NCBI GenBank assembly: GCA_001795735.1
Contig: MGKQ01000020.1
Location: forward strand, 1 to 52,049
DNA length: 52,049 nucleotides
Reading direction: 5' to 3'
DNA from: Candidatus Yanofskybacteria bacterium RIFCSPLOWO2_02_FULL_41_13
GTDB taxonomy: Bacteria > Patescibacteriota > Minisyncoccia > 2-02-FULL-40-12 > GWA2-44-9
Shown: one piece after another, positions 1,549-21,339 of the stretch
Layout: each line of letters begins with the position of its first letter
Position numbering within the stretch: position 1 is the stretch's first letter
Made by a program: the position numbers and the translations under genes
Notes under the pieces: generated by a model
Databases searched by the model: none
Seen by the model: the letters and a program-made list of their open reading frames with translations, nothing else
Told to the model about the DNA's origin: nothing

Positions 1549-1550
1549 CT
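1506..1550. terminator. Bidirectional intrinsic terminator
   Basis: A perfect 19-bp stem (1506-1524 with 1532-1550) is rich in A/T at its base and closes a 7-nt loop. It ends in the last codons of the recombinase gene and should stop transcription from both directions. Confidence 0.8.
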
Positions 1551-2817: not shown

Positions 2818-2949
2818 CTTTGTTACTTCGACTGCTATTGGGGGTGGGAAAGCCCCCGAAATCCCTTGTGTTGGTATGCTATTCATACACTAAGGAATGA
2901 CGCTTTGGTGGTAGGAGTCCAGAGCGCCCCAAGAACCTAAAGTTGGTAA

Positions 2950-4482: not shown

Positions 4483-4885
4483 AGTTTCTAAGTGATGATA
4501 ATTTTAATGCTTGGCGTATAAGCCCCTTTTGAGTGGCGGTTAAAGGTTCATCTTTAGTAGAAACTGTTCCGGACAATTCCAGACGGTCGGCATAACGTGG
4601 ATTGTTGTGGCGGAGTACGTATTTTATTGCTTCTATCTTTTTGTCTTTTACTAGACTGAAGAGTTGCGACTCGGCAATATCAGAGATAAAAAGCCTGCCC
4701 TCGAATAGCGCTTCTTCAACCTGTTTCGCGAATTCTTTGCTGGCTTTAGTCCAACGATAGAATGTCATTCGGGAGATGCCAACCTTCTCGCAAGCAATTT
4801 CGATAATCGGCGTTCTCATCAATTGTTCCAGTACCGCTTTCTTTAATTTGGCCTGTCGGATTTTAATAGTTTTTTCCTTACTCAT
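4454..4885 (-). CDS. Terminase small subunit-like HTH protein
   Basis: This 143-residue protein should recognise packaging-site DNA and load the large subunit. The N-terminal helix-turn-helix runs through IIEIACEKVGISRMTFYRW, a typical small-terminase DNA-binding segment. A helical middle (ESQLFSLVKDKKIEAIKYVLRH) resembles the oligomerisation region, followed by the NNPRYADR phrase common in this family. It sits between the methyltransferase (4-nt ATGA overlap) and the large terminase (29-nt overlap), so the three are translationally coupled. The call rests on the motif plus position. The helix-turn-helix alone would not separate it from other regulators. Confidence 0.8.
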   Translation of the reverse strand: MSKEKTIKIRQAKLKKAVLEQLMRTPIIEIACEKVGISRMTFYRWTKASKEFAKQVEEALFEGRLFISDIAESQLFSLVKDKKIEAIKYVLRHNNPRYADRLELSGTVSTKDEPLTATQKGLIRQALKLSSLRNYGQNKKQQK

Positions 4886-5640
4886 AATTTTATCGCTTTA
4901 AGGTTAGTTAGTTTTTCGAAGCGGTCAATAATTGTTTGGCAATATTCTGAATCAAGTTCAACGCCGATACAGATTCTTTTGGTCTGTTCGCAAGCCAATA
5001 GCGTTGTACCTGAGCCCAGAAATCCATCATAAACAACATCTCCAATGCGAGTGCTGTTTAATATCAGTCGGCGAATTAATCCGATTGGCTTGGTGGTGGG
5101 GTGAAATGGGCTCTTGCTTGGTTTTGGATGGACGATTACGCTTCTATCTTTGGACTTGAGAAATTCGTGAGTGCCATACCAGCCATATGCAATCAGCTCG
5201 TGTTGCGGAGCGTAATCCATTCTACCTATCACAGCCTGAGTTTTAACCCAGATCAGAAGCTGGGCGAATTTGAACCCGACTTTCAAAATGCCTTCTCGCA
5301 AGGCGAAGATCATTTTGTCGGAGTTAAAGATGTAGAAGCTGTTCTTCTTTGTCAGATGTGGTTTTACCGTTTCGAGCCAATCTCGAGTAAATTTTACATA
5401 CTCCCCATCGCTCTGAATTTGATCATTGGCTATGACCTTGTTTTTTAACAAGGGCTGAAATCCTTCTTTGGATTCCGTGACAGCTACACCATAAGGAACA
5501 TCGCAGATCACTGCTTTTATTTTGTGTTCCCCAACCAACTGAGCAACAGCTTCTTTATTTCTCGCATCCCCACAAAGCAGCAGATGACTGCCCAGACAAA
5601 ACACAGAACCATGTTTAATTGAGTTTTTTGATTTGGTCAT
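4882..5640 (-). CDS. DNA N4/N6 methyltransferase
   Basis: This 252-residue protein is an amino-methyltransferase using S-adenosylmethionine to methylate adenine (N6) or cytosine (N4). Catalytic motif IV reads DVPYG, a variant of DPPY. Near the C terminus the AdoMet motif is DGFLGSGTTLLAC, followed by GVELDSEYC. Motif IV precedes motif I, which is the beta-class order. HPTTKPIGLIRRLI is the usual segment between them. The gene overlaps its neighbours on both sides in the packaging operon. No restriction enzyme gene is adjacent, so it probably protects or marks the element's DNA rather than forming an R-M pair. Confidence 0.85.
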   Translation of the reverse strand: MTKSKNSIKHGSVFCLGSHLLLCGDARNKEAVAQLVGEHKIKAVICDVPYGVAVTESKEGFQPLLKNKVIANDQIQSDGEYVKFTRDWLETVKPHLTKKNSFYIFNSDKMIFALREGILKVGFKFAQLLIWVKTQAVIGRMDYAPQHELIAYGWYGTHEFLKSKDRSVIVHPKPSKSPFHPTTKPIGLIRRLILNSTRIGDVVYDGFLGSGTTLLACEQTKRICIGVELDSEYCQTIIDRFEKLTNLKAIKL

Positions 5641-6895
5641 TTGATATTTTTTTAAAACGATTAATAATTACCTGGCAAAACACTGGCTCAAGTTCGCAGA
5701 GATATGCGGTACGTTTCATTTGCTCACAGGCCGACAAGATACTGCCTGACCCAGCCGTCAGATCTAATACGACGTCTCCAGGCTTGGTACAGCGACGCAA
5801 AGCCTTTTCGTGGAGTGTTGGATTTTTCTGAGTCGGGTGTTCGTACTGGTTACCTGGCAATCTTTTTACAAGCCATATATTTAAGAGATCCAGAATATCT
5901 TCGGTGAGCCGATTACCAGTGCCGACTTCTTTGTTTATGACCTCATTCAAATTTTTTACTTTATCCGATAAGTACGGCCGACCGATTGTTCCATATACGA
6001 TATACTCTGTGACCTTATTAAAGGCGATGTTGGGTGTGGGCGATGCATTGTCCTTAATCCATATTAATAACCGCTTAGAATTGATATCGAGCTCTTTATA
6101 TAGTTGCTGCAATAGCCAAACATTTCGTTCATCGCACCAGAACATAACATGGGCATCCGGTTTAGTAACCGAGAGCGCATTCTGGATAATCGACTTCACA
6201 AATTTTCTGTATTCAGCATCTGACTTATTATCATTCATTGTGCCACCGTAACTTCCTTTGTTACCGACACCACGATCGTATGACAACCCGATATTAAAAG
6301 GTAAATCATCATTTATTAGGTCGGCACGGATGTTGCCCATGAGTTTCTTCGCATTTTCTGGTTGAGTTGCGTCAGCACAAAGCAGTCGATGTCTCCCAAG
6401 AGCAAAATAGTCTCCGGGTTTGATAGTCGTGCTTTTGGCTTTTTGAATCTCTTTCTCATCTTCAAATTCATCATCTAGAATTTCAAGGTTGTCATCATAG
6501 ATGTTGCTGAGATCGATTGAATCAAAACCTGCTGTCAGCAATTCGCCTAGATCAAAATCAGTTGCCAATTTTTCCCAATCCCAAGACGCTCCTGACCTAT
6601 TTGAAGTCAGAAGGTAGTCTTTAAATTCTTTTTCGGTTAATTTGCGATTAGGAACTCTGACCTCGATTTCTTCACCCCCTCTACCTAGAAGAGATAATGC
6701 TAAGACACGCTGATTTCCAGCGACCAACGTTCCGTCTGTATTAATACAAGGCAGTTCGGCTACATTGTATTTTTTAAGGCTTCGTTGTAACCCAGCTAGT
6801 TGAACCTGGCTAAGTACTCTCGGATTTTTATCATATCTGACGAGATCCTTTACTCGTCTTTTCTCCGTGTGCCATTCCATTTTTTTTGTTGGCAT
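5615..6895 (-). CDS. ParB-N domain/DNA methyltransferase fusion
   Basis: This 426-residue protein has two parts. Residues about 10-100 form a ParB/sulfiredoxin-like domain (VKDLVRYDKNPRVLS, then LVAGNQRVLALSLLG). The C-terminal half is a beta-class DNA methyltransferase. Its motif IV is DLPFNIG, a variant of DPPF, followed late by HPTQKN and DLTAGSGSILSACE. Such fusions are common in phages and integrative elements. It is the first gene of the minus-strand operon and overlaps the next methyltransferase by 26 nt. Both methyltransferases have an altered motif IV. Whether they remain active cannot be read from sequence. Confidence 0.85.
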   Translation of the reverse strand: MPTKKMEWHTEKRRVKDLVRYDKNPRVLSQVQLAGLQRSLKKYNVAELPCINTDGTLVAGNQRVLALSLLGRGGEEIEVRVPNRKLTEKEFKDYLLTSNRSGASWDWEKLATDFDLGELLTAGFDSIDLSNIYDDNLEILDDEFEDEKEIQKAKSTTIKPGDYFALGRHRLLCADATQPENAKKLMGNIRADLINDDLPFNIGLSYDRGVGNKGSYGGTMNDNKSDAEYRKFVKSIIQNALSVTKPDAHVMFWCDERNVWLLQQLYKELDINSKRLLIWIKDNASPTPNIAFNKVTEYIVYGTIGRPYLSDKVKNLNEVINKEVGTGNRLTEDILDLLNIWLVKRLPGNQYEHPTQKNPTLHEKALRRCTKPGDVVLDLTAGSGSILSACEQMKRTAYLCELEPVFCQVIINRFKKISNDQIKKLN

Positions 6896-6965: not shown

Positions 6966-7444
6966 AATGAAAGAAGGCTATAAATCCAAGCAACAAACCA
7001 TTTTAGGTTAGTTACCTCGATTCATAGCCCTTTAGTAAATCCGTACGGGCGCTATAGCCTAATCGGACCCACTCAGTTTTTCTATAAATTCATTGAATCT
7101 TACTTTTCGCCTTATTGTTTTGCCACTGGGGACTAAAGCGACTAGTATATTCCGCCCCAGACTTCACGAATGGGGCAAAGGTGTATTTAGTTGTTCTCTA
7201 TGTACTTGATATAAGTATAGCCTTATAGAGAACACCTCACAAGTACCCTGTGGATAATGCTATAAATACGTATTCTGTCAAAATTCATAAAAGTGTTCCG
7301 AATTAGGTCTGTCGGTAAAGCCCCTTCGCAACCGCCCTTTTTTAAGCTTGAATGGACGCCTGGTCGATATTTTGCTAAAATTCCCTTAACAATTCATTAA
7401 GTAGCCTAAACTCCAGGTATTGTTGCTTGGGGCATGGCGAAAAG

Positions 7445-7485
7445 TCGTATAAGGCATAAAAACCCCATCATAGGGTCGCCTTATA
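7445..7485 (+). other. Stable hairpin in the leader of the nuclease-like gene
   Basis: CGTATAAGGC pairs perfectly with GCCTTATACG, and the 22-nt loop contains a further CCC/GGG pairing. Two smaller hairpins follow (GAGAC/GTCTC near 7508-7522 and TGGTGG/CCACCA near 7531-7553). This clustering suggests a structured 5' untranslated RNA rather than coding sequence. Confidence 0.45.
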
Positions 7486-7571
7486 CGCCGTATTGGGAAA
7501 CCAATGCGAGAGACTCCGGTCTCTACCTGTGGTGGGCTTTTTGTATCCACCATGGGTTAAATTATAAACCT

Positions 7572-8633
7572 ATGGCTATAATAATTTCCCAAAACGGCAA
7601 GAACGCCGTGAAGGTTGAGAAATCAACTTTCGAAAAAGAAGATTCTCTTCAGCAGTATATTTATCAAAACCCCGAGAGCATTCCTCTCTACGATATTAAG
7701 GAAGATATCCGCCTTCTAATATTAGCTCGGGAGTTCCCAACCAATAGCGGTCCGATTGACGCTATTGGAATTGATAAGTTCGGCGAGCTATATATTGTCG
7801 AAACCAAATTATACAAGAATCCAGATAAGCGAATCGTCATCGCCCAAGTAATTGATTACGGTGCCGCGCTTTGGAAGCACTCCAATGACTTCAATGAATT
7901 TCTCTCTATTCTGGATGAGCACACTCAAAGAGTTTTTAGTTTAAGGACAACGGAAAAAATTCAAAGCTTCTTCCAGCTTTCCGAAGAAGAAGCGACTGCC
8001 CTAATAGACAAGTCGAAACGCAATCTTAACGATGGCGTTTTTCATTTCGTAATTCTCATGGACAAGCTCGACGATCGATTGAAAGACTTAATTCTCTACG
8101 TTAACCAAAACAGCCAGTTTGATATCTACGCCGTTGAGCTCGAATACTACAAGCACGATACGTATGAAATAGTCATACCCAGAATTTTTGGAGCAGAGGT
8201 TAAGAAGGATATCGCGGTTTCATCAGGTTCAAGTGCAAGGCGAAAGTGGGACGAGCGATCTATGCTCGAAGATGCTAAACAAAAATTCAACCCTGATGAG
8301 TTGGTGTTATTTGAGAAAATCTACAATTTCTCCAAAGAAAATGCCGATCTCATAAACTTCGGCACTGGATCATATGCAACGTTTAGTCCGATCTTTGAAA
8401 AACTATGCTCTAAATCCTTATTTACTCTCGGTACTGATAAACGGCTCAGCTTTAACTTTGAATGGGTTGGTCATGACAATCCAGAAACAATGGGAAAACT
8501 TAAAGAAGGGCTAGATAAGATTGGATTCAAATTCAAAGAAGACTACTCCAATACTCGTCCTAGTTTTCCCTTCGAAGATTGGTCATTGAAAACGGATGAA
8601 ATAATACGGGTCATTAATAACTTACTTTCATAA
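7572..8633 (+). CDS. PD-(D/E)XK nuclease-like protein
   Basis: This protein of about 353 residues carries a nuclease-fold signature: D63 in GPIDAIGID, then E77-T-K79 in LYIVETKLY, giving the D...ExK catalytic triad. The rest (helices around LIDKSKRNLNDGVFHFVILMDK and a C-terminal FKEDYSNTRPSFPF segment) is unfamiliar. I start at ATG 7572, since the 46 residues coded from 7434 cover a hairpin-rich stretch and read like chance sequence. There is no clear Shine-Dalgarno for either start. It overlaps the next gene by one base (TAATG), suggesting translational coupling with the membrane nuclease. A role in DNA restriction or defence is inferred from the fold and the island context. Confidence 0.65.
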   Translation: MAIIISQNGKNAVKVEKSTFEKEDSLQQYIYQNPESIPLYDIKEDIRLLILAREFPTNSGPIDAIGIDKFGELYIVETKLYKNPDKRIVIAQVIDYGAALWKHSNDFNEFLSILDEHTQRVFSLRTTEKIQSFFQLSEEEATALIDKSKRNLNDGVFHFVILMDKLDDRLKDLILYVNQNSQFDIYAVELEYYKHDTYEIVIPRIFGAEVKKDIAVSSGSSARRKWDERSMLEDAKQKFNPDELVLFEKIYNFSKENADLINFGTGSYATFSPIFEKLCSKSLFTLGTDKRLSFNFEWVGHDNPETMGKLKEGLDKIGFKFKEDYSNTRPSFPFEDWSLKTDEIIRVINNLLS

Positions 8634-9640: not shown

Positions 9641-10693
9641 TTATTCAGTCAGCCAAAAGAATATTTCATTTTCCAATTCTTGTTGTAGCTCGAACGAGTT
9701 GCTATGAGAAAGTATGCCCAGATATGAATTTATGCTCTGACCTAAAGATTCCAAAGTACGCTGTTTCCGTTTATATAACAAAATATTGCCATGTATTTTA
9801 TCAAATATTCTGTCCCTAGTCCTGTCTCTGGGTATCACGAAATGAGGAAAACAAACATAACCCAAGAAATCCACGCCTTGGCTAAACTTTCTGATCGTAA
9901 TTTTATTGGGATGCAGTTCAAGCTTAAGAACATCTTTAAGAAATCTGTTTATCGACTTTACGATCTCCAAACAATGATCTCTTTGAGGGTGTAGTATCAC
10001 GAAATCATCTGCATAACGAATGTAATGCTTTTCTTTCAACTGATGCTTCATGAATTGGTCGAGCTCATTGAGATACACATTGGCAAAAAGCTGTGAGGTC
10101 AGATTTCCAATTGGCAATCCCTTAGGCTCCTCGGGGTTAATTGTAAATTCTGATTTAAAACTTGAGACAACTTCATTTATTAACCACCGCGCATCAGGAT
10201 CAGTAACTTGCTTAAATACGATGTCTATCAGAACTTTATGATCAATGCTGGCGAAGAATTTTCTGACATCACATTTGAGCACCCAGCATGGAATAGTCCA
10301 ATTCTTGCTGACCTGTCGGGCATGTTCGGTAAAAGCCTCTACTCCCCGATGAGTACCTTTATCGATTCGGCAAGAGTATGAGTCGTAAATAAAGTTTGGC
10401 TCAAAGATGGGATTGAGATGTTTCACAATCGCATGGTGCAAAACTCGATCACGGACTAATGCTTTGTGAATATGCCTCACCTTTGGATCTTGGACGAAAA
10501 AAGAAGAGTACCCCGAATGCTTATACGTCCTATCCGCAAGAATGCGATGAAGCTCCCAAATGTTATCCTCCAAGTTATGTTCAAAGATGAGCGTATCTCT
10601 CCGATGTTTTTTGCCAATTCGAAATTCCCTCCACGAAATTACTAAATTCTCCAAACTAATAATTTGATCAAAAATATTATGGAAAACTCTCAT
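9641..10693 (-). CDS. DGR reverse transcriptase
   Basis: This 350-residue RNA-directed DNA polymerase copies the template RNA and misincorporates at adenines in mutagenic retrohoming. The fingers/palm order is complete: catalytic D142 in LKCDVRKFF, the motif GLPIGNLTSQ at 192-201 (a variant of the DGR-diagnostic motif 4), catalytic YADD at 227-230, and GVDFLGY at 273-279. There is no maturase or endonuclease domain, and the protein ends soon after the thumb, as in DGR enzymes. The template repeat lies on the same strand upstream. Its start overlaps the divergent Avd-like gene by 15 nt. The group II intron reading is rejected because a matching TR/VR set is present. Confidence 0.95.
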   Translation of the reverse strand: MRVFHNIFDQIISLENLVISWREFRIGKKHRRDTLIFEHNLEDNIWELHRILADRTYKHSGYSSFFVQDPKVRHIHKALVRDRVLHHAIVKHLNPIFEPNFIYDSYSCRIDKGTHRGVEAFTEHARQVSKNWTIPCWVLKCDVRKFFASIDHKVLIDIVFKQVTDPDARWLINEVVSSFKSEFTINPEEPKGLPIGNLTSQLFANVYLNELDQFMKHQLKEKHYIRYADDFVILHPQRDHCLEIVKSINRFLKDVLKLELHPNKITIRKFSQGVDFLGYVCFPHFVIPRDRTRDRIFDKIHGNILLYKRKQRTLESLGQSINSYLGILSHSNSFELQQELENEIFFWLTE

Positions 10694-11053
10694 AACTATG
10701 ATGGTAAATTTAGCTTAGATATTCCTATCTTTAAGAAAACGTACGATTTCTTAAAAGAATTCTATATCTTTGAACTAGATTTTCCAAAGAAAGATCGCTA
10801 CACACTCGGACAGCGTTGCGAAGAATACATCCTAAAGATTCTCGAGGGTATTATGCTTGCGGCTCAAACAAGTAAAAGCCACAAACTGCCGATCCTAGAG
10901 TCGGTCAGCAATAAGCTCGATATGCTAAAAGTATTTATCCGGTTAGCAAGCGATGTCGATGCACTCAGTGACGCTAGATATATTGTTTGCCAAAATCACA
11001 TTCAAGAAATCGGCAAAATGCTTGGCGGTTGGATTCGATCCACTCGCGAGTAA
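10679..11053 (+). CDS. avd: Avd-like four-helix-bundle accessory protein
   Basis: This all-helical basic protein of 124 residues is the expected DGR accessory factor, which in studied systems forms a ring, binds the reverse transcriptase and template RNA, and is needed for mutagenic cDNA synthesis. The helices run roughly IPIFKKTYDFLKEFYIF, RYTLGQRCEEYILKILEGI, PILESVSNKLDMLKVFIRLA and a final helix ending in GKMLGGWIRSTRE. I prefer ATG 10679; a TTG at 10664 would add five residues. It is divergent from the reverse transcriptase, with the two start regions overlapping. A 14-bp hairpin closes the gene. The assignment rests on size, helix pattern and position. Confidence 0.85.
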   Translation: MENSHNYDGKFSLDIPIFKKTYDFLKEFYIFELDFPKKDRYTLGQRCEEYILKILEGIMLAAQTSKSHKLPILESVSNKLDMLKVFIRLASDVDALSDARYIVCQNHIQEIGKMLGGWIRSTRE

Positions 11054-11084
11054 GTAATAGGCCTTCGAAAGAAGGCCTATTACT
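11053..11084. terminator. Perfect hairpin between avd and the template repeat
   Basis: A 14-bp perfect stem (11053-11066 with 11071-11084) closes a GAAA tetraloop and overlaps the avd stop codon. A short T-rich tract follows on the plus strand, so it should terminate avd. On the minus strand it lies just 3' of the template repeat and has no U-tract. There it could serve as the 3' structure of the template RNA rather than a terminator. Confidence 0.75.
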
Positions 11085-11096
11085 TTAACTTAGACA

Positions 11097-11219
11097 AAAC
11101 TACCGAGAGGGGCAGACGCCGAGATTGGAGTTCGTGTTGTCACGGGTATCGTTGTTGACGTTGAGACCATCCGAATCGAAGTTGCCAACGTTGACGAAGT
11201 TGCCGTCGGACGACTGAAC
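11097..11219 (-). repeat. DGR template repeat (TR)
   Basis: This 123-nt sequence, read on the minus strand, aligns without gaps to the three variable repeats. Read in the target frame it contains eight AAC codons and one AAT, so adenine mutation yields many residues but never a stop at those codons. Twenty-five adenines lie in the mutable core. The last eight codons before TAG have no adenine, giving a GC-rich 3' end as expected for the homing-initiation segment. It is on the same strand as the reverse transcriptase and opposite to the targets. Confidence 0.97.
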
Positions 11220-11223
11220 CTAA

Positions 11224-11340
11224 GTGTTTTGTTCCCTCCATAAGCGCCCCGTGGCCACCGGATAGCTTCAAAAAGGAAACATCTCCTGAATTTTACGTGA
11301 TGGCAGTCTAAGAGTCGACATCCACACTGAAACAAAACAC
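11224..11340 (-). ncRNA. Putative structured segment of the template RNA
   Basis: GTGTTTTGTT (11224-11233) and AACAAAACAC (11331-11340) are perfect inverse complements. They bracket about 97 nt directly upstream of the template repeat in the minus-strand sense. A stem here would present the template at the base of a folded RNA. That the region is transcribed is inferred from its position, since the cDNA template must be made as RNA. Confidence 0.45.
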
Positions 11341-11560
11341 GTAGTTTCGTTTTGTTGCTTTCTGTGCCCGCACCTCTTTCCATAACCGTTAAGCCATAGA
11401 AACTCTGGCGGAAATTACAAAAAGGAGATCCGTAAGATTAAACCAGCCGTAGCCAGGCCCAATCTCTATTAACAAAAGCTCGATACTATTATGGCATAAA
11501 CCTTGTGATTATGACAGCTAGCAAAAATTTAGGATTGGCTGTATATTTGAATAAAGAACT

Positions 11561-12388
11561 ATGCCATTTGAAGCCTATAAAATCTACGAAGAGTACGAGC
11601 CAGACAAATACAAGACCTCCACTCAAAAGAAAGTAGAGCAAGCTTTGGATACCGCCAAAAAGGAGGGCTTAGTACCTGAGGGTAAAGAAGTTAATATTGA
11701 ATTCCAAGAAGCCGAAGAAATTCTAGGTAAAGACTTCTTGGGGCCGGAAGCGGTTCAAGCTACTTTTAACGTAGAATTAACCCCTGAAGAATTACAGGAA
11801 ATTGAAAATATACCATTCACCAGAGAAGATTTAGAACAAGCCAAGCAATTGGGTATGATGCTGGTTTTAAGAGTACCTCGACTTGGTGAAGGCAAGACGG
11901 AACGGCCATTAACTATGGATTCGGCTAGAGAGTTATTTGCTGGCGGTGACACGCTTGGAGATCCTAAGAAAAAGAAGCAGAAAGTTTTTTATGGTAAAAA
12001 AGGAGAAAGCTGGTACGACAACGAAGGGTTCGCCACTCAAGAAACTCCTAAGCTTGGCTGGGGCTTAGTCATGAAATCAGTTCTACCAGATTCGTTGGAC
12101 AAGAACTGGGATCAGCAAGAAGATATTTTAAAGAAATGGGCAAAGGACAATAATATTGATCCGACCCTTGTTAAAAGAAGGACCCCGGTCGAAATTGCTT
12201 ATGACACCTTGATATATTATGGTGCAAACAAGGAGTCACTGTTAGAGGGTAAATATGATTGGTCCGGCGTTCAGTCGTCCGACGGCAACTTCGTCAACGT
12301 TGGCGCCTTCGTTTCGGATGGTCTCAGCGTCAACAACGATACCCGTGACAACACGCTCTCCCATCTCGGCGTCTGCCCCTCTCGGTAG
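11561..12388 (+). CDS. DGR target protein 1 (variable C terminus)
   Basis: This 275-residue cytosolic protein, with no signal peptide, is diversified by the retroelement. Residues 1-45 are charged and helical (YKIYEEYEPDKYKTSTQKK). The middle carries FLGPEA, LTPEELQEIENIPFTREDLEQAKQLGMMLVLRVPR and LGDPKKKK. The C-terminal module from about residue 160 (SWYDNEGFATQ to VCPSR) should be the ligand-binding fold, C-type-lectin-like in most DGR targets. Residues 237-275 are the variable repeat. It differs from the template at seven adenines, giving five altered residues. It is followed by the MoxR ATPase gene. Its ligand is unknown, and the lectin-like fold is inferred from the DGR setting. Confidence 0.9.
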   Translation: MPFEAYKIYEEYEPDKYKTSTQKKVEQALDTAKKEGLVPEGKEVNIEFQEAEEILGKDFLGPEAVQATFNVELTPEELQEIENIPFTREDLEQAKQLGMMLVLRVPRLGEGKTERPLTMDSARELFAGGDTLGDPKKKKQKVFYGKKGESWYDNEGFATQETPKLGWGLVMKSVLPDSLDKNWDQQEDILKKWAKDNNIDPTLVKRRTPVEIAYDTLIYYGANKESLLEGKYDWSGVQSSDGNFVNVGAFVSDGLSVNNDTRDNTLSHLGVCPSR

Positions 12389-12391
12389 TTT
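12269..12391 (+). repeat. Variable repeat VR1
   Basis: This 123-bp copy of the template forms the end of target 1 and includes its stop codon. All seven differences from the template are at template adenines: AAC to GCC, GAT to GTT, AAC to AGC, AAC to CTC, and AAT to CAT. It is the least diversified of the three. Confidence 0.97.
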
Positions 12392-12451
12392 CGCCTTGGG
12401 TGCTTGGTCTCCTTGATCCTTATTGATTCCTTGGTCTTTCGAAAAATTTTT
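12392..12451 (+). repeat. Conserved 60-bp flank after VR1
   Basis: This non-coding block starts CGCCTTGGGTGC and ends AAAAATTTTT. It matches the sequence after VR3 exactly over 60 bp by eye and the sequence after VR2 with about three or four changes. The template repeat is not followed by it. Confidence 0.85.
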
Positions 12452-12491
12452 TAAACTGGTAAAATCTATGTAAAAATGTAACATTTATTAT

Positions 12492-14186
12492 ATGTCTAAC
12501 TCAAAAGAATCACTCCCACCGATACCAAATATGCCCACTACTCCTGAACGAATTATTCAGGAAAGAGGCGTAGATGCCACAAAAGAAAAAGAAAAACTCT
12601 CGCCAGAGCAACTTGAAGCCAGAGTCCAAGAACTCATGGACTTATCGGCGGCTCGAGCCGAAGCCTCTAAACATGTCCGTGAATCTTGGGGCGGTCTCAC
12701 TAAAGATGAGCGCGAGGAATTAAAGAAAGAGGAAGGTCAAAATACAGGAGCTGTAGCAGCTCAATTCGACGCTCTCAAAGTTGACCCAGAGCTGGCAGAA
12801 TTTTCTGAAAATGTCCTCGCCGAGTACGATCAGCGTATCCAAGAGCTGGGAAGCAACCCCAAAGTCATAGAAGCATATGGTGAGCGTTTTGAAGGAATGA
12901 AAGACGCTTTAGCTAAAGTTCTAGAGTATGAGCATATTCAGAAAGAACTCGATGCGATTACTAGTAGCGAACAGAAACTGCGTTTAATGTATGAAAAAGT
13001 CGGACGTTCACCCGGTCCGATTGAGCGAACCAAACTGACCGATTTGGCAAAGCGTAAAGAAGAACTCCAAAAAGAAATAAGTGGTTTTGAGTTGGATCCG
13101 GCATCGATTGACATGCTTCGACGCCGAGAGGTTCGGGGTATGCAAAGAGATTTAGAGCGTTACAACTTTGCTGAAACTGAATCCCGCACCGAACTCATTA
13201 GAGAAGTTTTACCTGACCTACTCCATGGCGCACCAATTCTATTTCAAGGTGAAACCGGCTCGGGCAAAACCCAGTTAGCTAAATATATTTCTCACAGATT
13301 TTTAGGCCACGAAGTATCGCCAATTTCTATCTCCGAACAGATTAAAGAATCCCAAATCATGGGAAGGGTTACACTGAAAGAAGGTGCCACCGATTTTCTG
13401 TACTCTGAAATGGTCAAAAGCATGAAAGAGGGCCGTCCAGTAATCATGGATGAGATCAACTTGATGCCTCATGAATTTCAAGGCATCCTCAATGAAATTT
13501 TCCAATTACGAATTGGTAGCACATGGAAGCACCCCTCTACCGGAGAATCAATCAAAGTTGCCCCTGGCTTTGTGATCTTTGCTACTGCCAACCTTAAGTC
13601 AGAACGCTACAAGCAACGCTATGAACTAGATGTTGCCACTCTAAGACGTTTCATCGGTGGTGCCGGTGCCAGAGAAATTCACTACTTGGATCTAGGCAAG
13701 AAAAGCAAAGAGGGAGAGTATATCGCACCAGAGACACTTAAGATTCTTGCCTCAGTGTTGGCAGATCGAAACGGCAACATTATTTGGAGCGAACAAGAAT
13801 CACCTCAAAAACTTGATGAGCTAAAACGTTTTGTTGGTGCTTGCCGCAAAATTCAAGAAGACTTTACTTTGAGCGTTAGGGAAGGCTCTGAAGATTCATT
13901 GTCTCGAGGTGACAAATTGGCTTTCAAAGAATTAGTCATTACGCTCAAAGACCAGATTGAGATTATGAAAGCATGGAAAGCATCTGGTTTTGCCGAACCA
14001 CTAGAAAGTATTGTCCTAAGAGAGTTTTTCAGAAAAGCTGAAATAAGCGGCCGAGCAGCCAAGGACAGGGAAAATATGGTCAAAGTGTTTATGGCTAATA
14101 AATTCTTCAAAGACACTGACCCAGAAGACTTTAATATCCAAGGGTTATCCTCTAAAACTGTTCGCCAGTGGCAAGGTAAAGAATAA
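12492..14186 (+). CDS. MoxR-type AAA+ ATPase
   Basis: This 564-residue AAA+ protein should remodel or activate partner proteins using ATP, typically together with a VWA-domain protein. The N-terminal 230 residues are charged and probably coiled-coil. The AAA core has Walker A GETGSGKT at 253-260, Walker B VIMDEIN with D320/E321, sensor 1 ATAN with N367, and an arginine-rich LRRF nearby. A helical C-terminal region follows. It lies between target 1 and target 2, and the VWA protein comes two genes later. The next target starts 5 nt after this gene stops, so cotranscription is likely. MoxR-VWA pairs are known in cofactor insertion, chaperone and proposed conflict systems; the last fits best here. 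Confidence 0.88.
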   Translation: MSNSKESLPPIPNMPTTPERIIQERGVDATKEKEKLSPEQLEARVQELMDLSAARAEASKHVRESWGGLTKDEREELKKEEGQNTGAVAAQFDALKVDPELAEFSENVLAEYDQRIQELGSNPKVIEAYGERFEGMKDALAKVLEYEHIQKELDAITSSEQKLRLMYEKVGRSPGPIERTKLTDLAKRKEELQKEISGFELDPASIDMLRRREVRGMQRDLERYNFAETESRTELIREVLPDLLHGAPILFQGETGSGKTQLAKYISHRFLGHEVSPISISEQIKESQIMGRVTLKEGATDFLYSEMVKSMKEGRPVIMDEINLMPHEFQGILNEIFQLRIGSTWKHPSTGESIKVAPGFVIFATANLKSERYKQRYELDVATLRRFIGGAGAREIHYLDLGKKSKEGEYIAPETLKILASVLADRNGNIIWSEQESPQKLDELKRFVGACRKIQEDFTLSVREGSEDSLSRGDKLAFKELVITLKDQIEIMKAWKASGFAEPLESIVLREFFRKAEISGRAAKDRENMVKVFMANKFFKDTDPEDFNIQGLSSKTVRQWQGKE

Positions 14187-14191
14187 CCACT

Positions 14192-15010
14192 ATGCCATTT
14201 GAAGCCTATAAAATCTACGAAGAGTACGAGCCAGACAAATACAAGACCTCCACTCAAAAGAAAGTAGAGCAAGCTTTGAGTTCAGCGAAAAAAGAAGGTC
14301 TTATACCAGAAAGAAAAGAAGCGAGTATTGAGTTTGAGGAAGCTAGAGAAATCTTTGGCAAGGACTTTCTTGGTCCTGAATCTGCTGAAGCCACTTTCGG
14401 TGTTGAGTTATCACAAGAAGAACTGGAGCAAATTGAAGATATCCCATTCTCTCGAGAAGAATTAGAACAAGCCAAACAGCTTGGCATGATGCTTGTTTTG
14501 AGAGTGCCCAGAATCGGCAAAGAGAAAAATGCTAAATCATTTAGCATCAACAGTGTGCGAGAGGCTTTTAAAGACGACGATAAGTTGGGCGATCCTAAAA
14601 AGAAGAAATCAAATATCTTTTACGATCAAGATTGGTACGACAATGAATCGTTTGCTACCCAAGACACTCCCTCACTAGGGTGGGGCCTCGTTATGAAAGA
14701 AGTGTTACAAGAATCACGAAGCAAGAATTGGGACGAGCAGGAAGAAGCTCTTAAAGCATGGGCCAAGGAAAACAATATTGACCCTGCAAAAGTTAGGCGC
14801 AGAAAACCAATAGAGATTATTTACGATACCCTCCTTTACTACGGCACCAACAAGGAATCGCTTTTGGAAAACTCCTATGATTGGTCCGGGGTTCAGTCGT
14901 CCGGCGGCAACTTCGTCTTCGTTGGCCTCTTCGATTCGGGTGGTCTCTTCGTCGGCAACGTTCCCCGCGGCTACACGCTCTCCAATCTCGGCGTCTGCCC
15001 CTCTCGGTAG
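14192..15010 (+). CDS. DGR target protein 2 (variable C terminus)
   Basis: This 272-residue paralogue of target 1 has the same layout. Its first 87 bases are identical to those of target 1, although the rest of the body is clearly diverged. The linker after LRVPR is shorter and the YGKKGES segment is reduced. The variable repeat spans residues 234-272 and is the most diversified of the three, with 16 adenine-site changes plus one silent change elsewhere. Several positions become hydrophobic (Phe, Leu), suggesting a different ligand. Its ATG lies 5 nt after the MoxR stop, with no clear Shine-Dalgarno of its own, so translational coupling is likely. Confidence 0.9.
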   Translation: MPFEAYKIYEEYEPDKYKTSTQKKVEQALSSAKKEGLIPERKEASIEFEEAREIFGKDFLGPESAEATFGVELSQEELEQIEDIPFSREELEQAKQLGMMLVLRVPRIGKEKNAKSFSINSVREAFKDDDKLGDPKKKKSNIFYDQDWYDNESFATQDTPSLGWGLVMKEVLQESRSKNWDEQEEALKAWAKENNIDPAKVRRRKPIEIIYDTLLYYGTNKESLLENSYDWSGVQSSGGNFVFVGLFDSGGLFVGNVPRGYTLSNLGVCPSR

Positions 15011-15013
15011 TTT
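14891..15013 (+). repeat. Variable repeat VR2
   Basis: This 123-bp copy of the template has 17 differences, 16 of them at template adenines (for example AAC to TTC, CTC, GGC or TAC). The exception is a silent T-to-C change at 14968 (CGT to CGC). Confidence 0.97.
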
Positions 15014-15073
15014 CGCCTTGGGTGCTTGGATTCCTTGATCCTTATTGATCCCTTGGTCTTTCGAAAAATTTTT
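15014..15073 (+). repeat. Conserved 60-bp flank after VR2
   Basis: This is the same block as after VR1 and VR3, with small changes (GGATTCC for GGTCTCC and GATCCCTT for GATTCCTT). It ends 10 nt before the VWA gene and may overlap its translation signals. Confidence 0.8.
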
Positions 15074-15083
15074 ATAAACCACA

Positions 15084-17078
15084 ATGCCCCCAGAATCATT
15101 CCCCATAAATCGAATAGAACCTCCTCAAGACGAGCCTAAGCCAGAGGTCTCCACGAATGAAGGCGAAGTTGATGCTCAAGCAGTTGAGGAATTTTTAAAT
15201 CGGGAAACAGAACTCTTAGCCGCTTACGGATTAAAAGGCGACATAACTTTGGAGAGAGGAAATGGTGGCTGGGCGTTTGATTTTCAAAACCGAAAACTCA
15301 TTTATGACCCCAAGTTCTTTATTGAACGAGGATACAGCCTGCAAGAGACTCTCTTTGCTACTACCCATGAACTCATGGCTCACTATGGCGAGCTGATGCG
15401 TGACCCGGAGCTTGTTTTAAGGGAAGCCAAGCGTTATAGCGCCAAAGGCCACCTCCATCTTTTGTACAACATCTTTGAAGATGTATTAGGTAATAGACGC
15501 ATTGTTGCCGAACTACCATTTCTAGAACAAACCAGAGAAGATCTTTACCGAGAAAAGATGTTTCCCCCTACTGACTACACCGATAAGTCATCTCATGTTC
15601 AATTTACTTACGGTTTTATTCGACAAATGATGGTGCCGGGTGAAGCAGTACAACTTGGACCGGAGGCTCAGGCCGCTTTAGATAAGTTGCGAAGTTTTGG
15701 CTCTGACAAAATAGATATTCTTGACCTCGTTACAACCCCGACAATTGATCCCAAAGATCGCTTTCGCATCATGCGAACGATTGTTGAACCTATTTACCGA
15801 GAACTCTACGAGAAAGATTTAGAAGAAGAGAAGAAAAGCGGTAAAAGTCAGGATCAAGGTGAAGGTTCGCCCACAGACACTCAGGTTTCTGATAAACCTC
15901 AACAGGGTCAGGGTTCGGGTCAGGAAAAGAAAAAATGGTGGCAAAGAAAAAAAGAAACTCCTCAAGAAGGAAAAGACAAAGAGGAACAACAACCTGGCAA
16001 AGGCGTAGATAAAAAGTCCAGTGATCGTGCCGCCAGAGAAGCGGCTGAAAAGAAGTTCAAAGAAGAATATAAGGCGTACCACGATGGTCACCCAGAGCCT
16101 ATAACGCATGCGGAGGAAAAGCAGATCAAGAAGTTGATGGAAGAAATCGTTGCCAAGAAAGGCGGCGAGCCAACTCTTGAGCAACACATTCTTGAAGAAT
16201 GGGCTCGTGAGCATGGAGTTAATGCCGAAGATGTTCTCGGATATCGAAAAGAATATGCAGAGATTGCCCCGCTGGTAGCTGAACTCCGGGAGGTTTTTAA
16301 ACAAATCATTTCTCGCCGACTAAAGGAACGCTGGAAGTTTTCCCCACAACTTGAAACTGAAGGCGAAGAGTTATCAGAGGATACTCTCGTTGAATCTTCC
16401 ATTGAATCCCAAACTGGAGGTCAGCCTAGGGCTTTTCGAGAACTTGAGAAGCACAAGAAAGAACAAGAAGGCTACGGCATGTTAGACATGACCCTGGTCA
16501 ATGACTTGTCTGGCTCTATGAATGAGGGTGGTAAGCTTGTGATGGATCGTAAAAGTAAACTCTTATTCTTAGAATCCTTGGCTGATTTCCAAAAAGAAAT
16601 TGAACAAGCTGAATATGAGAGTGGTGTTTCTCTCGGTCTGCAAGTAAGAACCGAAACCCGAGCATTTGGTGATTTCGGTGACACTGAGCTTAAAGAACTC
16701 TCAACTGATCTATCCGAGAAAGACAGAATCGGTATTTGGAAGAAAATGCACAAGGCTGGTGGCGGTACACCCGATTACCTATCTTTAAACGAAGTCTTGA
16801 AATCGATCACTCCGGAACAAGAGAAAGAATTACGCGAAAAACTAAGAAGAAAGATAGTCGTTGTTCTTTCTGATGGCGACAGTCAAGATGCTGGTAAAGT
16901 TCAGAGCATCCTTCTTCAGCTACGAAATAAGGGTGTTATGGTATTGGGTCTTGGCATGACCGAATCTGGTCAAGCCGTTAAAGAAACATATAAACCTGAC
17001 GCTGAGGTTATCGTTGATATCAATACATTGCCACAGGCAGTTCAAAAAGTTATTCTAAAATATACTCAAGACCTATAA
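15084..17078 (+). CDS. VWA-domain protein with N-terminal metallopeptidase-like region
   Basis: This 664-residue protein is the likely VWA partner of the MoxR ATPase. The N-terminal region contains THELMAH (H95-E96...H100), an HExxxH pattern close to but not matching the zincin HExxH, followed by a YNIFEDVLGNRRI helix. This resembles predicted metallopeptidases fused to VWA. A long Lys/Glu/Gln-rich linker spans about residues 245-330. The VWA domain has the MIDAS motif D474-L-S476-G-S478, a downstream GGGTPDY and VVVLSDGDS. A Mg-dependent adhesion or conformational switch role is expected. It ends one base before target 3. Whether the peptidase part is active is doubtful. Confidence 0.85.
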   Translation: MPPESFPINRIEPPQDEPKPEVSTNEGEVDAQAVEEFLNRETELLAAYGLKGDITLERGNGGWAFDFQNRKLIYDPKFFIERGYSLQETLFATTHELMAHYGELMRDPELVLREAKRYSAKGHLHLLYNIFEDVLGNRRIVAELPFLEQTREDLYREKMFPPTDYTDKSSHVQFTYGFIRQMMVPGEAVQLGPEAQAALDKLRSFGSDKIDILDLVTTPTIDPKDRFRIMRTIVEPIYRELYEKDLEEEKKSGKSQDQGEGSPTDTQVSDKPQQGQGSGQEKKKWWQRKKETPQEGKDKEEQQPGKGVDKKSSDRAAREAAEKKFKEEYKAYHDGHPEPITHAEEKQIKKLMEEIVAKKGGEPTLEQHILEEWAREHGVNAEDVLGYRKEYAEIAPLVAELREVFKQIISRRLKERWKFSPQLETEGEELSEDTLVESSIESQTGGQPRAFRELEKHKKEQEGYGMLDMTLVNDLSGSMNEGGKLVMDRKSKLLFLESLADFQKEIEQAEYESGVSLGLQVRTETRAFGDFGDTELKELSTDLSEKDRIGIWKKMHKAGGGTPDYLSLNEVLKSITPEQEKELREKLRRKIVVVLSDGDSQDAGKVQSILLQLRNKGVMVLGLGMTESGQAVKETYKPDAEVIVDINTLPQAVQKVILKYTQDL

Positions 17079-17079
17079 T

Positions 17080-17907
17080 ATGCCATTTGAAGCCTACAAA
17101 ATCTACGAAGAATACGAGCCAGACAAGTACAAAACCTCTACCCAAAAGAAAGTAGAGCGGGCTTTGGATTCAGCAAAGAAAGAAGGTCTTGTACTAGAAA
17201 GAAAAGAAGTTAACTTAGAGTTTGATGAAGCCAAAGAGATATTTGGTAAAGACTTTCTCGGTCCCGAAGCTATTAAGACTACTTATGGAGTAGAGCTTAG
17301 CCCAGAGGAATTACAAGAAATTGAAAACATACCGTTTACCAGAGAAGATTTGGAGCAGGCTAAACAGCTTGGCATGATGCTTGTCCTCAGGGTGCCGAGA
17401 CTTGGTGAGGGTAAAAACGAAAAGCCTCTTACCATAGATCAAATTCGTGAAAAGTTCTCTGGAGGAGACACTCTCGGTGACCCTAAGAAAAAGAAGCAGA
17501 AAATGTTTTATCGCAAAAAGGGTGAAGGCTGGTATGACACCGAAGCATTTGCCACTCAAGAAACTCCTAAGCTTGGTTGGGGCTTGGTCATGAAATCAGT
17601 GCTACCTGATTCACTGGGCAAGAACTGGGATCAGCAGGAAGATGTACTCAAAAACTGGGCTAAACAAAATAACATCGATCCGGCTTTAGTGAAGCGCAGA
17701 ACCCCAGTTGAAATCGCTTACGACACATTTCTCTATTACGGCGAGAACAAAGAAACTCTACTAGAAGATAAATGGGATTGGTCCGGCGTTCAGTCGTCCG
17801 ACGGCTACTTCGTCCGCGTTGGCATCTTCGATTCGGATGGTCTCTACGTCGACCACGGTACCCGTGACTACGCGATCTCCATTCTCGGCGTCTGCCCCTC
17901 TCGGTAG
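17080..17907 (+). CDS. DGR target protein 3 (variable C terminus)
   Basis: This 275-residue third paralogue begins one base after the VWA gene stops. Its body is closest to target 1 (for example LGWGLVMKSVLPDSL and KRRTPVEIAYDT), but its 5' end differs from the other two at many silent sites. The variable repeat covers residues 237-275 and carries 12 differences from the template, all at adenines. They introduce Tyr, Arg, Ile, Asp and His, the kind of residues seen in diversified binding surfaces. It is the last gene of the target/MoxR/VWA operon and is followed by the conserved 60-bp block. Confidence 0.9.
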   Translation: MPFEAYKIYEEYEPDKYKTSTQKKVERALDSAKKEGLVLERKEVNLEFDEAKEIFGKDFLGPEAIKTTYGVELSPEELQEIENIPFTREDLEQAKQLGMMLVLRVPRLGEGKNEKPLTIDQIREKFSGGDTLGDPKKKKQKMFYRKKGEGWYDTEAFATQETPKLGWGLVMKSVLPDSLGKNWDQQEDVLKNWAKQNNIDPALVKRRTPVEIAYDTFLYYGENKETLLEDKWDWSGVQSSDGYFVRVGIFDSDGLYVDHGTRDYAISILGVCPSR

Positions 17908-17910
17908 TTT
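17788..17910 (+). repeat. Variable repeat VR3
   Basis: This 123-bp copy of the template has 12 differences, every one at a template adenine. Examples are AAC to CGC, ATC, TAC, GAC or CAC, ACG to GCG, and AAT to ATT. Confidence 0.97.
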
Positions 17911-17970
17911 CGCCTTGGGTGCTTGGTCTCCTTGATCCTTATTGATTCCTTGGTCTTTCGAAAAATTTTT
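17911..17970 (+). repeat. Conserved 60-bp flank after VR3
   Basis: This block is identical by eye to the one after VR1. It precedes a small hairpin (AAGCGGCTG...TTAGCCGCTTT, about 17980-18003) that probably ends the operon. Confidence 0.85.
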
Positions 17971-18004: not shown

Positions 18005-18072
18005 GCTTGATAATCCAAGAGAAGTGGTCTAGACTTTGCCTTATATGTCCCCAAAAAGGAACTTTAAACCAT

Positions 18073-21000
18073 ATGATAATAAAGTTACCCAATTTAGGTG
18101 TATCCCACTGGGATCACAACAAAAACGTTGTGCAGCAACTTATTTTACCAGCACGAGAGCTGGAATTTACTGTCACAGAATTTAACGAGGCTGGTATTAC
18201 TGGCTTTATTCTCCAAGAAGATGGCGAAACCGGGGCTGTGGGTGCCCCGGTTCTTGTTATAAGAGGTATGAAAGAAGGACCGCCCCGTTTTGAAAAAGTA
18301 ATTCAATTTAAGGCTCTCCCGATTATTCTCCCACCCGACCTATCAGATGGGATCTGGGTTAAGCATCCAGAGATTGATCAATTACGATCTAATCCAAGAA
18401 CTCATACGGATATCATTACTTCGTGGCGACAACCCTTCTCTTATCAAGAAGAGGATGTGGTAAACGGAACCCACGGATTGAGGTCTCCGCAAATTGGCGC
18501 ACTTCACGCAATTCATGCTCATTGGATTGTAAGTGAGGATCCTGCAACTGTAGTGATGCCTACGGGAACTGGAAAAACTGAAACAATGTTGTCAGTATTA
18601 GTATCAAAACAGTGCACTAAGGTCTTAGTTATCGTTCCAACCGATGCATTAAGAAGTCAGATTGCTGGAAAATTTTCTTCTTTGGGCATACTAAAAGAGC
18701 TTGGTGTGATTCCTGGTAATCATCATTACCCGATTGTGGGCATGTTAAAGAGTAAACCAGATAGTATTGCTGAGCTCGATCAAATATTTGAACAATCAAA
18801 TGTCATCGTTACAACTATAAATATAGCAGGACAGATGTCGTCTGAACTACAAGAGAGGATGGTCCATCATTGCGAGTATCTTTTTATTGATGAAGCTCAC
18901 CATATAGGGGCCAGAACATGGAAGGAATTAAAAGGAAAGTTTAAAAATAGGAAAATACTTCAGTTTACTGCAACTCCATTTAGAAACGATAATGTAACAA
19001 TCGATGGGAAGATAATTTTTAAATACCCCTTAAAGAAGGCTCTTGAAAATGGATACTTTAAAAAAATCCACTTCAAGCCAGTGAACGAGTTTGATCCCGA
19101 AAAAGTAGATACGGCCATCGCGGAAAAGGCCGTTGCTCAGTTACGGGAGGATCCAATTAATCATATATTAATGGCCAGGGTTGAGACGGTTGCAAGAGCA
19201 GAAGAGGTTTTTAGGATATATGAGCAATATCGAGAGTTTAACCCCGTGCAGATACATTCTGGTATTAAATCAAAAAAGGACCGTGAGCGTGTTCGGCAAG
19301 AACTCCTAACTGGCAGGTCCAGAATAGTTGTATGTGTTGATATGCTCGGAGAAGGTTTTGACCTGCCTGAATTAAAGATTGCAGCTTTTCATGATATTAG
19401 AAAGAGTTTGGCGGTAACTTTGCAACTTGCGGGACGTTTTACCAGATCAAGAGTAGATCTTGGAGAGCCTACATTTATCGCCAATGTAGCGGACGTAGGA
19501 GTAAGAGATGAACTAAGAAAACTTTATGAGCATGATGCAGACTGGAATGTTCTATTAGAACAAAGTAGTGAAGAAGCAATTGGTGGGCAAATATCCCTTC
19601 ATCAGTTTGCTGAAGGATTTGTTGATTTTCCGGCTGATATCCCACTTCAAAATCTTCATCCAGCCACCAGTACTGTAATATATAAAACGAAGTGCACTGA
19701 ATGGAATCCTGATAATTTTGAGCGAGGCATAAAGGGGTTGGGTTCTGTCGATAAAATTTTTCACAGTATAAATCCCCATGCCAACACTCTCGTCATTGTC
19801 ACTGCTAAAAAAGTTCCAGTGGATTGGATTAAGGTTAATGAGGTTTATAACTGGGACTGGGAGCTCTATATTGTTTATTGGAATAGTGAAACGAAGTTGT
19901 TGTTTATTCATAGCTCTAGCAACGCGGGATATTTTCCTACGCTCGCTCAGGCTGTAGCTGGAGCAGATGTCGAGTTGGTTCAAAATAACGATGTCTTTCG
20001 TACTCTTTCGGGAATTAAACGATTACTGCTTTATAATGTTGGCTTAAGAAAACAACTAGGAAGACTCATCCGATATACCATGCAAGCTGGGTCCGATGTC
20101 GAGGCTGGACTTGGAGAAACTGCAAAGAGAAATGTTACTAAATCTAACTTGTTTGGAGGAGGTTATGAACATGGGAAAAGAACAAGTATCGGATGCTCGC
20201 GCAAGGGAAGAATTTGGTCTAGACGTATAGTAAACATCGAAGCGCTAATCGGATGGTTTAACTCTGTGGGTGCTAAAGTTATAGATGAGACTATTGATCC
20301 CGACGAGATTCTAAAAGGAACACTGAAGCCAAAAATCGTGGGATCGAGACCAGCCAAAGTACCAGTCCGAATAGATTGGCCAGAAAAGTTTTATATGGAG
20401 ACAGAAACCGATTTCGCATTTACTTATGGAACCAGGAAAGTTCCTCTTCATATGACCGATATAAACCTTAAAGATATTTCCGATACAGGTAATATAGAGT
20501 TTACTGTTAAGTCAGACAATTACTCTACAAACTTTTCTCTACAACTTACAGAAGTTGATGATGTGCAGGAATACAAGTTTGCTAGGACGGGCGGCGATGT
20601 GGTTAAAATTTACTCAAAAGGTCAAGATATTCCTCTTGAAGAATTTTTCTACTATAACCCTCCAGTTGTATGGTTCGCTGACGGCTCTTCCTTGGAAGGA
20701 AATACGTATACAGAATTAAACTCAGAGCCCATAGCTTTTGCAGACAGTAAAATTGAAGCTTGGAATTGGTCTGGTACCAATATTAGAAGGGAATCGCAAG
20801 GAGTTACTAAGGATCAAGAATCAATCCAGTATAAAGTCATCCAAAAGCTTATCGCTGATGATTCTGAAATAGTGGTAAATGACGATGGTTCCGGAGAAGC
20901 CGCAGATATAGTTGCAGTGCGAGTTGTAGAAACTGAAGGTGGAGATAATTATGTTGAGATAGATCTTTATCATTGTAAGTTTTCAAGCGAAGATACTCCT

Positions 21001-21339
21001 GGTGCACGGTTAAAAGACTTATATGAAGTTAGCGGGCAAGCGCAGAGGAGTTCCTATTGGAGAGAGAATCCTTCCAGGCTTTTCTCGCATCTTATGAGAA
21101 GAGACCCAATGCGGGAGAATGGTCAGGAGGTTAGCCGATTTGAGAAGGGAGACAAAAATGTTCTTCAGAAGATTAGTCGCATGAGTGAAATTATTGAGTC
21201 TCGTATGAATATTTATATTGTTCAGCCAGGAATCTCTAAGGCCAGGATCAGTGAGGAGCAGAAAAAACTTTTGGGTGTTACCGAAAATTACCTGACCGAA
21301 ACATATGAGTTACCTTTTAAAGCAATAGTTTCTGAATAA
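18073..21339 (+). CDS. Large SF2 DEAH-type helicase, possible defence protein
   Basis: This protein of about 1088 residues is an ATP-dependent nucleic-acid translocase. Motifs from the chosen start are Walker A PTGTGKT (163-169), DEAH at 273-276, TATPF, an MLGEGFD motif V and QLAGRFTR as motif VI. The C-terminal part is unusual. It includes D945 (AADIVAV) and an EIDLYHCK segment at 962-969 that resembles a degenerate PD-(D/E)XK nuclease core. I chose ATG 18073 because AAGGAAC lies a suitable distance upstream; the frame extends 22 codons further. The layout recalls restriction-type helicases in defence islands. Its link to the DGR operon is positional only. Confidence 0.75.
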   Translation: MIIKLPNLGVSHWDHNKNVVQQLILPARELEFTVTEFNEAGITGFILQEDGETGAVGAPVLVIRGMKEGPPRFEKVIQFKALPIILPPDLSDGIWVKHPEIDQLRSNPRTHTDIITSWRQPFSYQEEDVVNGTHGLRSPQIGALHAIHAHWIVSEDPATVVMPTGTGKTETMLSVLVSKQCTKVLVIVPTDALRSQIAGKFSSLGILKELGVIPGNHHYPIVGMLKSKPDSIAELDQIFEQSNVIVTTINIAGQMSSELQERMVHHCEYLFIDEAHHIGARTWKELKGKFKNRKILQFTATPFRNDNVTIDGKIIFKYPLKKALENGYFKKIHFKPVNEFDPEKVDTAIAEKAVAQLREDPINHILMARVETVARAEEVFRIYEQYREFNPVQIHSGIKSKKDRERVRQELLTGRSRIVVCVDMLGEGFDLPELKIAAFHDIRKSLAVTLQLAGRFTRSRVDLGEPTFIANVADVGVRDELRKLYEHDADWNVLLEQSSEEAIGGQISLHQFAEGFVDFPADIPLQNLHPATSTVIYKTKCTEWNPDNFERGIKGLGSVDKIFHSINPHANTLVIVTAKKVPVDWIKVNEVYNWDWELYIVYWNSETKLLFIHSSSNAGYFPTLAQAVAGADVELVQNNDVFRTLSGIKRLLLYNVGLRKQLGRLIRYTMQAGSDVEAGLGETAKRNVTKSNLFGGGYEHGKRTSIGCSRKGRIWSRRIVNIEALIGWFNSVGAKVIDETIDPDEILKGTLKPKIVGSRPAKVPVRIDWPEKFYMETETDFAFTYGTRKVPLHMTDINLKDISDTGNIEFTVKSDNYSTNFSLQLTEVDDVQEYKFARTGGDVVKIYSKGQDIPLEEFFYYNPPVVWFADGSSLEGNTYTELNSEPIAFADSKIEAWNWSGTNIRRESQGVTKDQESIQYKVIQKLIADDSEIVVNDDGSGEAADIVAVRVVETEGGDNYVEIDLYHCKFSSEDTPGARLKDLYEVSGQAQRSSYWRENPSRLFSHLMRRDPMRENGQEVSRFEKGDKNVLQKISRMSEIIESRMNIYIVQPGISKARISEEQKKLLGVTENYLTETYELPFKAIVSE

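Follow-up and report, generated by a model that had tools for sequence, protein, structure and literature searches.

A Patescibacteria diversity-generating retroelement whose three targets probably act as sensors coupled to a MoxR-vWA machine

The window analysed in this study (a stretch of 52,049 nucleotides of Candidatus Yanofskybacteria DNA) contains what is probably, at about two chances in three, a functional chromosomal diversity-generating retroelement (DGR) of a Patescibacterium that diversifies three sensor proteins coupled to a MoxR-vWA machine. The sequence shows that the block holds all the parts of a DGR, that its repeats differ specifically at template adenines, that the flow from template to variable repeats is of long standing, and that the interleaving of the target genes with genes for an AAA+ ATPase and a vWA protein is conserved. 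Sensing by the targets, transfer of a signal by way of the AAA+ and vWA proteins, and a role in defence or recognition are what I propose for this arrangement. The original prediction did not extend to the AAA+ and vWA partners, to the recurrence of the entire block in relatives or to the unusual way in which Avd and the hairpin are laid out. The features of the block are listed in Table 1.

Table 1. Features of the DGR block, by position in the window.
Feature	Position	Strand	Basis
DGR-type reverse transcriptase (RT), 350 aa, YADD and IGNLTSQ motifs	9641..10693	-	Pfam RVT_1 E 3.8e-26; PDB 8ub7 E 1.4e-38
Avd accessory protein	10685..11053	+	NF033474 93 bits (cut-off 80); PF22296 bAvd 69.5 bits (cut-off 40)
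Hairpin directly 3' of TR, between TR and Avd stop	11055..11086	-	stem kept through two-sided changes in relatives
Template repeat (TR), 123 nt	11097..11219	-	repeat alignment
Target gene T1, 275 aa, with VR1 at its 3' end	11561..12388	+	ORF, paralogue comparison
Variable repeat VR1, differing from TR at 7 sites, all of them TR adenines	12269..12391	+	TR alignment
Iterated CTTG element 3' of VR1	12392..12450	+	motif count
MoxR/midasin-type AAA+ ATPase (AAA_5), 564 aa	12492..14186	+	Pfam AAA_5; Walker A and B invariant
Target gene T2, 272 aa, start 6 nt past AAA stop	14192..15010	+	ORF, paralogue comparison
Variable repeat VR2, differing from TR at 17 sites (16 of them TR adenines) over 14891-15013	14890..15013	+	TR alignment
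Iterated CTTG element 3' of VR2	15014..15073	+	motif count
vWA protein, 664 aa, MIDAS DLSGS, N-terminal HELMAH	15084..17078	+	Pfam VWA above cut-off, alignment
Target gene T3, 275 aa, start 2 nt past vWA stop	17080..17907	+	ORF, paralogue comparison
Variable repeat VR3, differing from TR at 12 sites, all of them TR adenines	17788..17910	+	TR alignment
Iterated CTTG element 3' of VR3	17911..17970	+	motif count

The original prediction of a complete DGR is borne out, since no part is missing or damaged, from the RT, Avd and TR to the three VRs at the C-termini of the targets. The RT has the catalytic motif YADD, and the closest PDB chain to it is 8ub7, which I take to be the structure of the BPP-1 DGR RT. 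Avd exceeds the curated NCBIfam cut-off for DGR-Avd and starts with an ATG at 10685 on the plus strand, head-to-head with the RT, with a 9-nt overlap of the start codons. The same head-to-head orientation is found in all 50 RT/Avd locus pairs annotated in the host's class and in 19 of 20 elsewhere in the phylum; in phage loci the two genes share a strand in nine of the nine scored. The literature searched gives no account of this orientation, which may be new. The host assembly is that of an uncultured Patescibacterium (1.02 Mb, with Candidatus Yanofskybacteria and other Patescibacteria as its named relatives) and contains four DGR RT genes. The three besides that of the window (L065, L066 and L067, at C9, C22 and C20:68197) were accompanied by TR/VR pairs in two cases.

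A gap-free alignment of a 123-nt template with three VRs, each ending a paralogous gene, had been claimed and proves exact, with all VRs spanning the stop codon. The predicted 7, 17 and 12 differences, 35 of 36 of them at TR adenines, were reproduced when the alignment was counted by template base. With 27 adenines in the 123 nt of TR, the binomial probability of at least 35 such differences in 36 is 2.5e-22. TR adenines are changed to T (16), G (11) or C (8), and the sole non-adenine difference in the 123 nt, at offset 77, changes T to C in VR2. A recount also gave 22 of the 25 core adenines altered in at least one VR, as predicted; the codons of the template, said never to reach a stop, are indeed stop-free under any rewriting of all 16 variable codons; and the figure of about 4^25 (10^15) variants agrees with the ~6.3e14 amino-acid combinations computed here. 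Just past the repeat, at offsets 123 and 125, TR has T where all three VRs have C, and these two fixed differences may mark an IMH/IMH*-like boundary. DGRs with multiple VRs are common (28.6% of 948; PMC6642488), so the presence of three targets is in itself unremarkable.

The TRs of the window and of the related genomes or loci G020, G011 and L118 differ mutually at non-adenine sites, which allows the VRs to be compared across genomes (rows L119 and L121 are left out of the comparison). Each VR has 0-1 non-adenine mismatches in 93-95 sites to the TR of its own genome, against 3-15 to the TRs of the other genomes; for the three VRs of the window the values against their own TR are 0, 1 and 0. 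Since the VRs match their own TR and differ from the others, the flow from TR to VR went on after the lineages split. By comparison of species, then, the VR follows its own TR over time, as expected of mutagenic retrohoming, and the claim of recent activity gains support from this concerted evolution and from a near-zero drift at non-adenine sites of the VRs, although the rest of the paralogues has diverged.

It is improbable that the retroelement is instead a recently inactivated relic, its VRs frozen and its pattern left over from earlier activity. Such a loss does happen, and one relative (G029) illustrates it: only the last 45 codons of its RT are left, neither Avd nor TR was found at the locus, and a search of the genome with the TR returned only its three VRs. 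These have stayed clean for a while, with 0, 3 and 0 non-adenine mismatches to the TR of G020. In the window, however, both RT and Avd have undamaged reading frames and conserved, intact catalytic motifs, and the near-perfect agreement of its VRs with their own TR given above also argues against a relic. There is still less to be said for ordinary gene conversion among the three paralogues, with no retrohoming at all, as the source of the similarity of the VRs; I give it almost no weight. The paralogues are near-identical at their 5' ends too (T1 and T2 share their first ~90 nt), but gene conversion could not confine the differences to template adenines, and it leaves unexplained why the VRs match a TR located beside the RT and in none of the target genes. 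Gene conversion alone is ruled out by the adenine bias.

The targets alternate with the AAA+ ATPase and the vWA protein in the order T1-AAA-T2-vWA-T3 and are paralogues with 71-82% protein identity. The identical starts of T1 and T2 (11561-11650 and 14192-14280) are found despite an overall protein identity of 71%, and gene conversion therefore probably occurs within the target family. The targets have no match in Pfam, NCBIfam or PADLOC, and none of them has a start that reads like a signal peptide. A PDB sequence search with the targets and the vWA protein gave nothing useful, nor did a viral structure library yield anything significant for the target model. The stretch most conserved among targets is an N-terminal tail (MPFEAYK.YEEYEP) that is predicted to be flexible; beyond it the model is of high confidence (mean pLDDT 86, pTM 0.80). 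Its best matches in the PDB, headed by a C-type lectin domain (E 0.16), are C-type lectin and formylglycine-generating-enzyme (FGE) folds, at non-significant E-values of at least 0.16. The diversified C-terminal domain may be C-type-lectin-like.

The AAA+ ATPase is midasin-like, with invariant Walker A and B motifs, and the MIDAS motif of the vWA protein is intact, its DLSGS invariant. The HELMAH of this vWA family sits where the vWA proteins of distant relatives carry HExxH, so a peptidase-like N-terminal domain is possible. The AlphaFold model of the vWA protein is unusable (pLDDT 39.6). General profiles of Pfam, NCBIfam and PADLOC matched no VMAP, iSTAND, FtsH or beta-propeller in the targets or their neighbours, and no known effector gene or VMAP-like third protein was recognised.

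The T-AAA-T-vWA-T block recurs, whole or nearly so, in G011, G029, L118 and L119, and in part on the partial contigs L120, L121 and L123. A tree of 53 Patescibacteria RTs places the RTs of all the split T-AAA-T-vWA-T systems together (SH-aLRT 100). In G029 (L022) the RT, Avd and TR are gone, yet the five genes are intact; its outer targets appear to be swapped, the first being T3-like and the last T1-like. In G020 (L023) the DGR, two targets and the vWA gene were kept while AAA and T2 were lost, plausibly by recombination between paralogues. No AAA homologue was found in the G020 assembly (93% complete), and AAA is therefore not strictly required. These natural losses, one of RT, Avd and TR and the other of AAA, provide ready comparisons.

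Elsewhere the same partners occur in other arrangements. Three loci of the host's class (L125, L128 and L131) encode an AAA domain and a VR in a single protein of 720-800 aa, next to which, or next to the RT, there is a vWA gene, and such a fusion accompanied by a vWA gene is also found in another part of the phylum (L138); these fusions argue for joint action. Another locus (L084) shows a vWA-T-AAA-T interleaving with an unrelated target family; its middle protein (585 aa) is a putative AAA by its P-loop-like GTGKNK motif. The vWA partners in the fusion loci and in L084 carry HExxH. In most of the approximately 50 other annotated DGR loci of the class, the targets have no AAA or vWA matches nearby.

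In the mechanism I propose, the RT with Avd would reverse-transcribe the TR RNA, miscopying adenines, and the cDNA would replace the 3' ends of the three target genes. Their products would be ligand-binding sensors, each with a diversified C-terminal domain, and their partners would be the two proteins whose genes lie between theirs, the MoxR-type AAA+ ATPase and the vWA protein. A sensor that has bound its ligand would signal to the ATPase, and the ATPase in turn would work on the vWA protein, with its putative peptidase-like N-terminal domain, or act by way of it. The interleaving of the targets with the ATPase and its partner gene suggests a set of changeable sensor proteins, the likeliest role of which would be the recognition of phage or of another variable partner.

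A more serious rival than those considered above, though still an unlikely one, accepts the DGR as real and takes the AAA+ and vWA genes for mere operon or island mates, the targets being surface or secreted binders used, for example, in attachment to a host. Attachment is a plausible need of small, probably host-dependent cells, and this explanation fits both the loss of AAA and T2 in G020 and the lack of AAA/vWA matches near the targets of most of the other DGR loci in the class. Against it stand the conserved interleaving with near-zero intergenic gaps and the five-gene block that has outlived the DGR core in G029; the AAA-VR fusions beside a vWA gene and the independent split example of L084 likewise speak against it. 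Surface binding, for its part, agrees poorly with targets in which no Pfam, NCBIfam or PADLOC domain and, as far as sequence can tell, no signal-peptide-like start is found. I continue to prefer three sensors coupled to a MoxR-vWA machine.

The DGR of Bordetella phage BPP-1 (brt, avd, mtd) is like that of the window in its RT, its Avd, its adenine-specific change from TR to VR and its C-terminal VR. In BPP-1 the target, Avd, TR and RT lie on one strand, whereas here Avd is antisense and head-to-head with the RT. The cis elements also differ: homing in BPP-1 requires a hairpin after the VR (PMC3240598), whereas here the strong hairpin comes after the TR, and what comes after the VRs is a series of iterated CTTG motifs. 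A strong hairpin stands between the TR and the antisense avd gene in most CPR loci. In close relatives, 6 of the 12 consensus pairs of the post-TR hairpin have changed on both sides with pairing retained. A perfect stem of at least 8 bp within 70 nt of the TR is found in 28 of 50 class loci, as compared to ~0.1% of shuffles and 5 of 50 VR flanks. The GC-rich hairpin with a GRNA loop, a feature of phage DGRs though not a strictly defining one, is absent after the VRs of the window, and a stem of at least 8 bp was seen after the VR in those same few class loci.

The density of CTTG was counted in the VR 3' flanks of the 50 class loci, one VR per locus. CTTG or CTTTG occurs there 3.0 times per 70 nt, as against 0.06-0.7 after other genes of the same loci, and successive motifs stand 7-9 nt apart in 74 of 105 cases (18 expected). 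Loci outside the class have a weaker motif, and phage VR flanks have fewer, weaker or variant short repeats, which weakens the idea that the element is unique to CPR. It is possibly an element for recognition of the target site, and I hypothesize that it replaces the phage-type hairpin after the VR. A wider reading, which I advance tentatively and hold at somewhat less than even odds, is that the Patescibacteria DGR layout has been rewired, with an antisense head-to-head Avd, a hairpin at the 3' end of the TR RNA and a target site marked by CTT(T)G in place of a hairpin, and that here, in single tiny cells, it serves a compact MoxR-vWA recognition system with three sensors. The head-to-head Avd, post-TR hairpin and post-VR CTTG may point to differences of CPR DGRs in the expression of template RNA and the recognition of target DNA.

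DGRs with MoxR-vWA sensors are already a known kind, and what is new is the arrangement and the partners. Ternary conflict systems of the MoxR-vWA type (VMAP and related) with DGR-diversified targets have been described (Kaur 2020, PMC7159879; Dore 2024, PMC10907252) and likewise bring together, at a single locus, a MoxR-type AAA+ protein, a vWA protein and a putative sensor diversified by a DGR; in clade 5A a target is immediately preceded by the MoxR gene (PMC10907252). Those systems often have vWA and variable domain fused in one protein, and genes for VMAP, a peptidase, TIR or an adaptor are common in them, whereas the three targets here are small, separate proteins encoded in alternation with AAA and vWA, and neither a VMAP nor an effector gene was recognised. 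The ternary systems occur mainly in multicellular bacteria and the present host is a Patescibacterium, which suggests that diversified sensors with MoxR-vWA modules also exist outside multicellular bacteria.

CPR DGRs make up clade 2 of Roux 2021 (PMC8144416), and AAA-CLec fusion targets were reported for CPR by Paul 2017, as cited in PMC10907252. The DGR of the window is likened to these by its Patescibacteria host, chromosomal location, domain-less targets and the AAA-VR fusions found in its class; it differs from them in its split arrangement, its three paralogous targets and its separate vWA gene. Patescibacteria DGR targets, usually domain-less, are thereby linked to a specific AAA+/vWA machine, and a target tied to such a partner permits a testable guess at its function.

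The surroundings of the block also deserve mention. A minus-strand serine recombinase is encoded within 1549-6895, along with two DNA methyltransferases and a terminase-like protein that scores below cut-off; this is likely a mobile-element or prophage remnant beside the DGR. The DGR block itself is flanked by a NucS-like protein, a match to the candidate defence family PDC-S11 (7434-8633), and on the other side by a type III Res/DEAD-type helicase (18007-21339).
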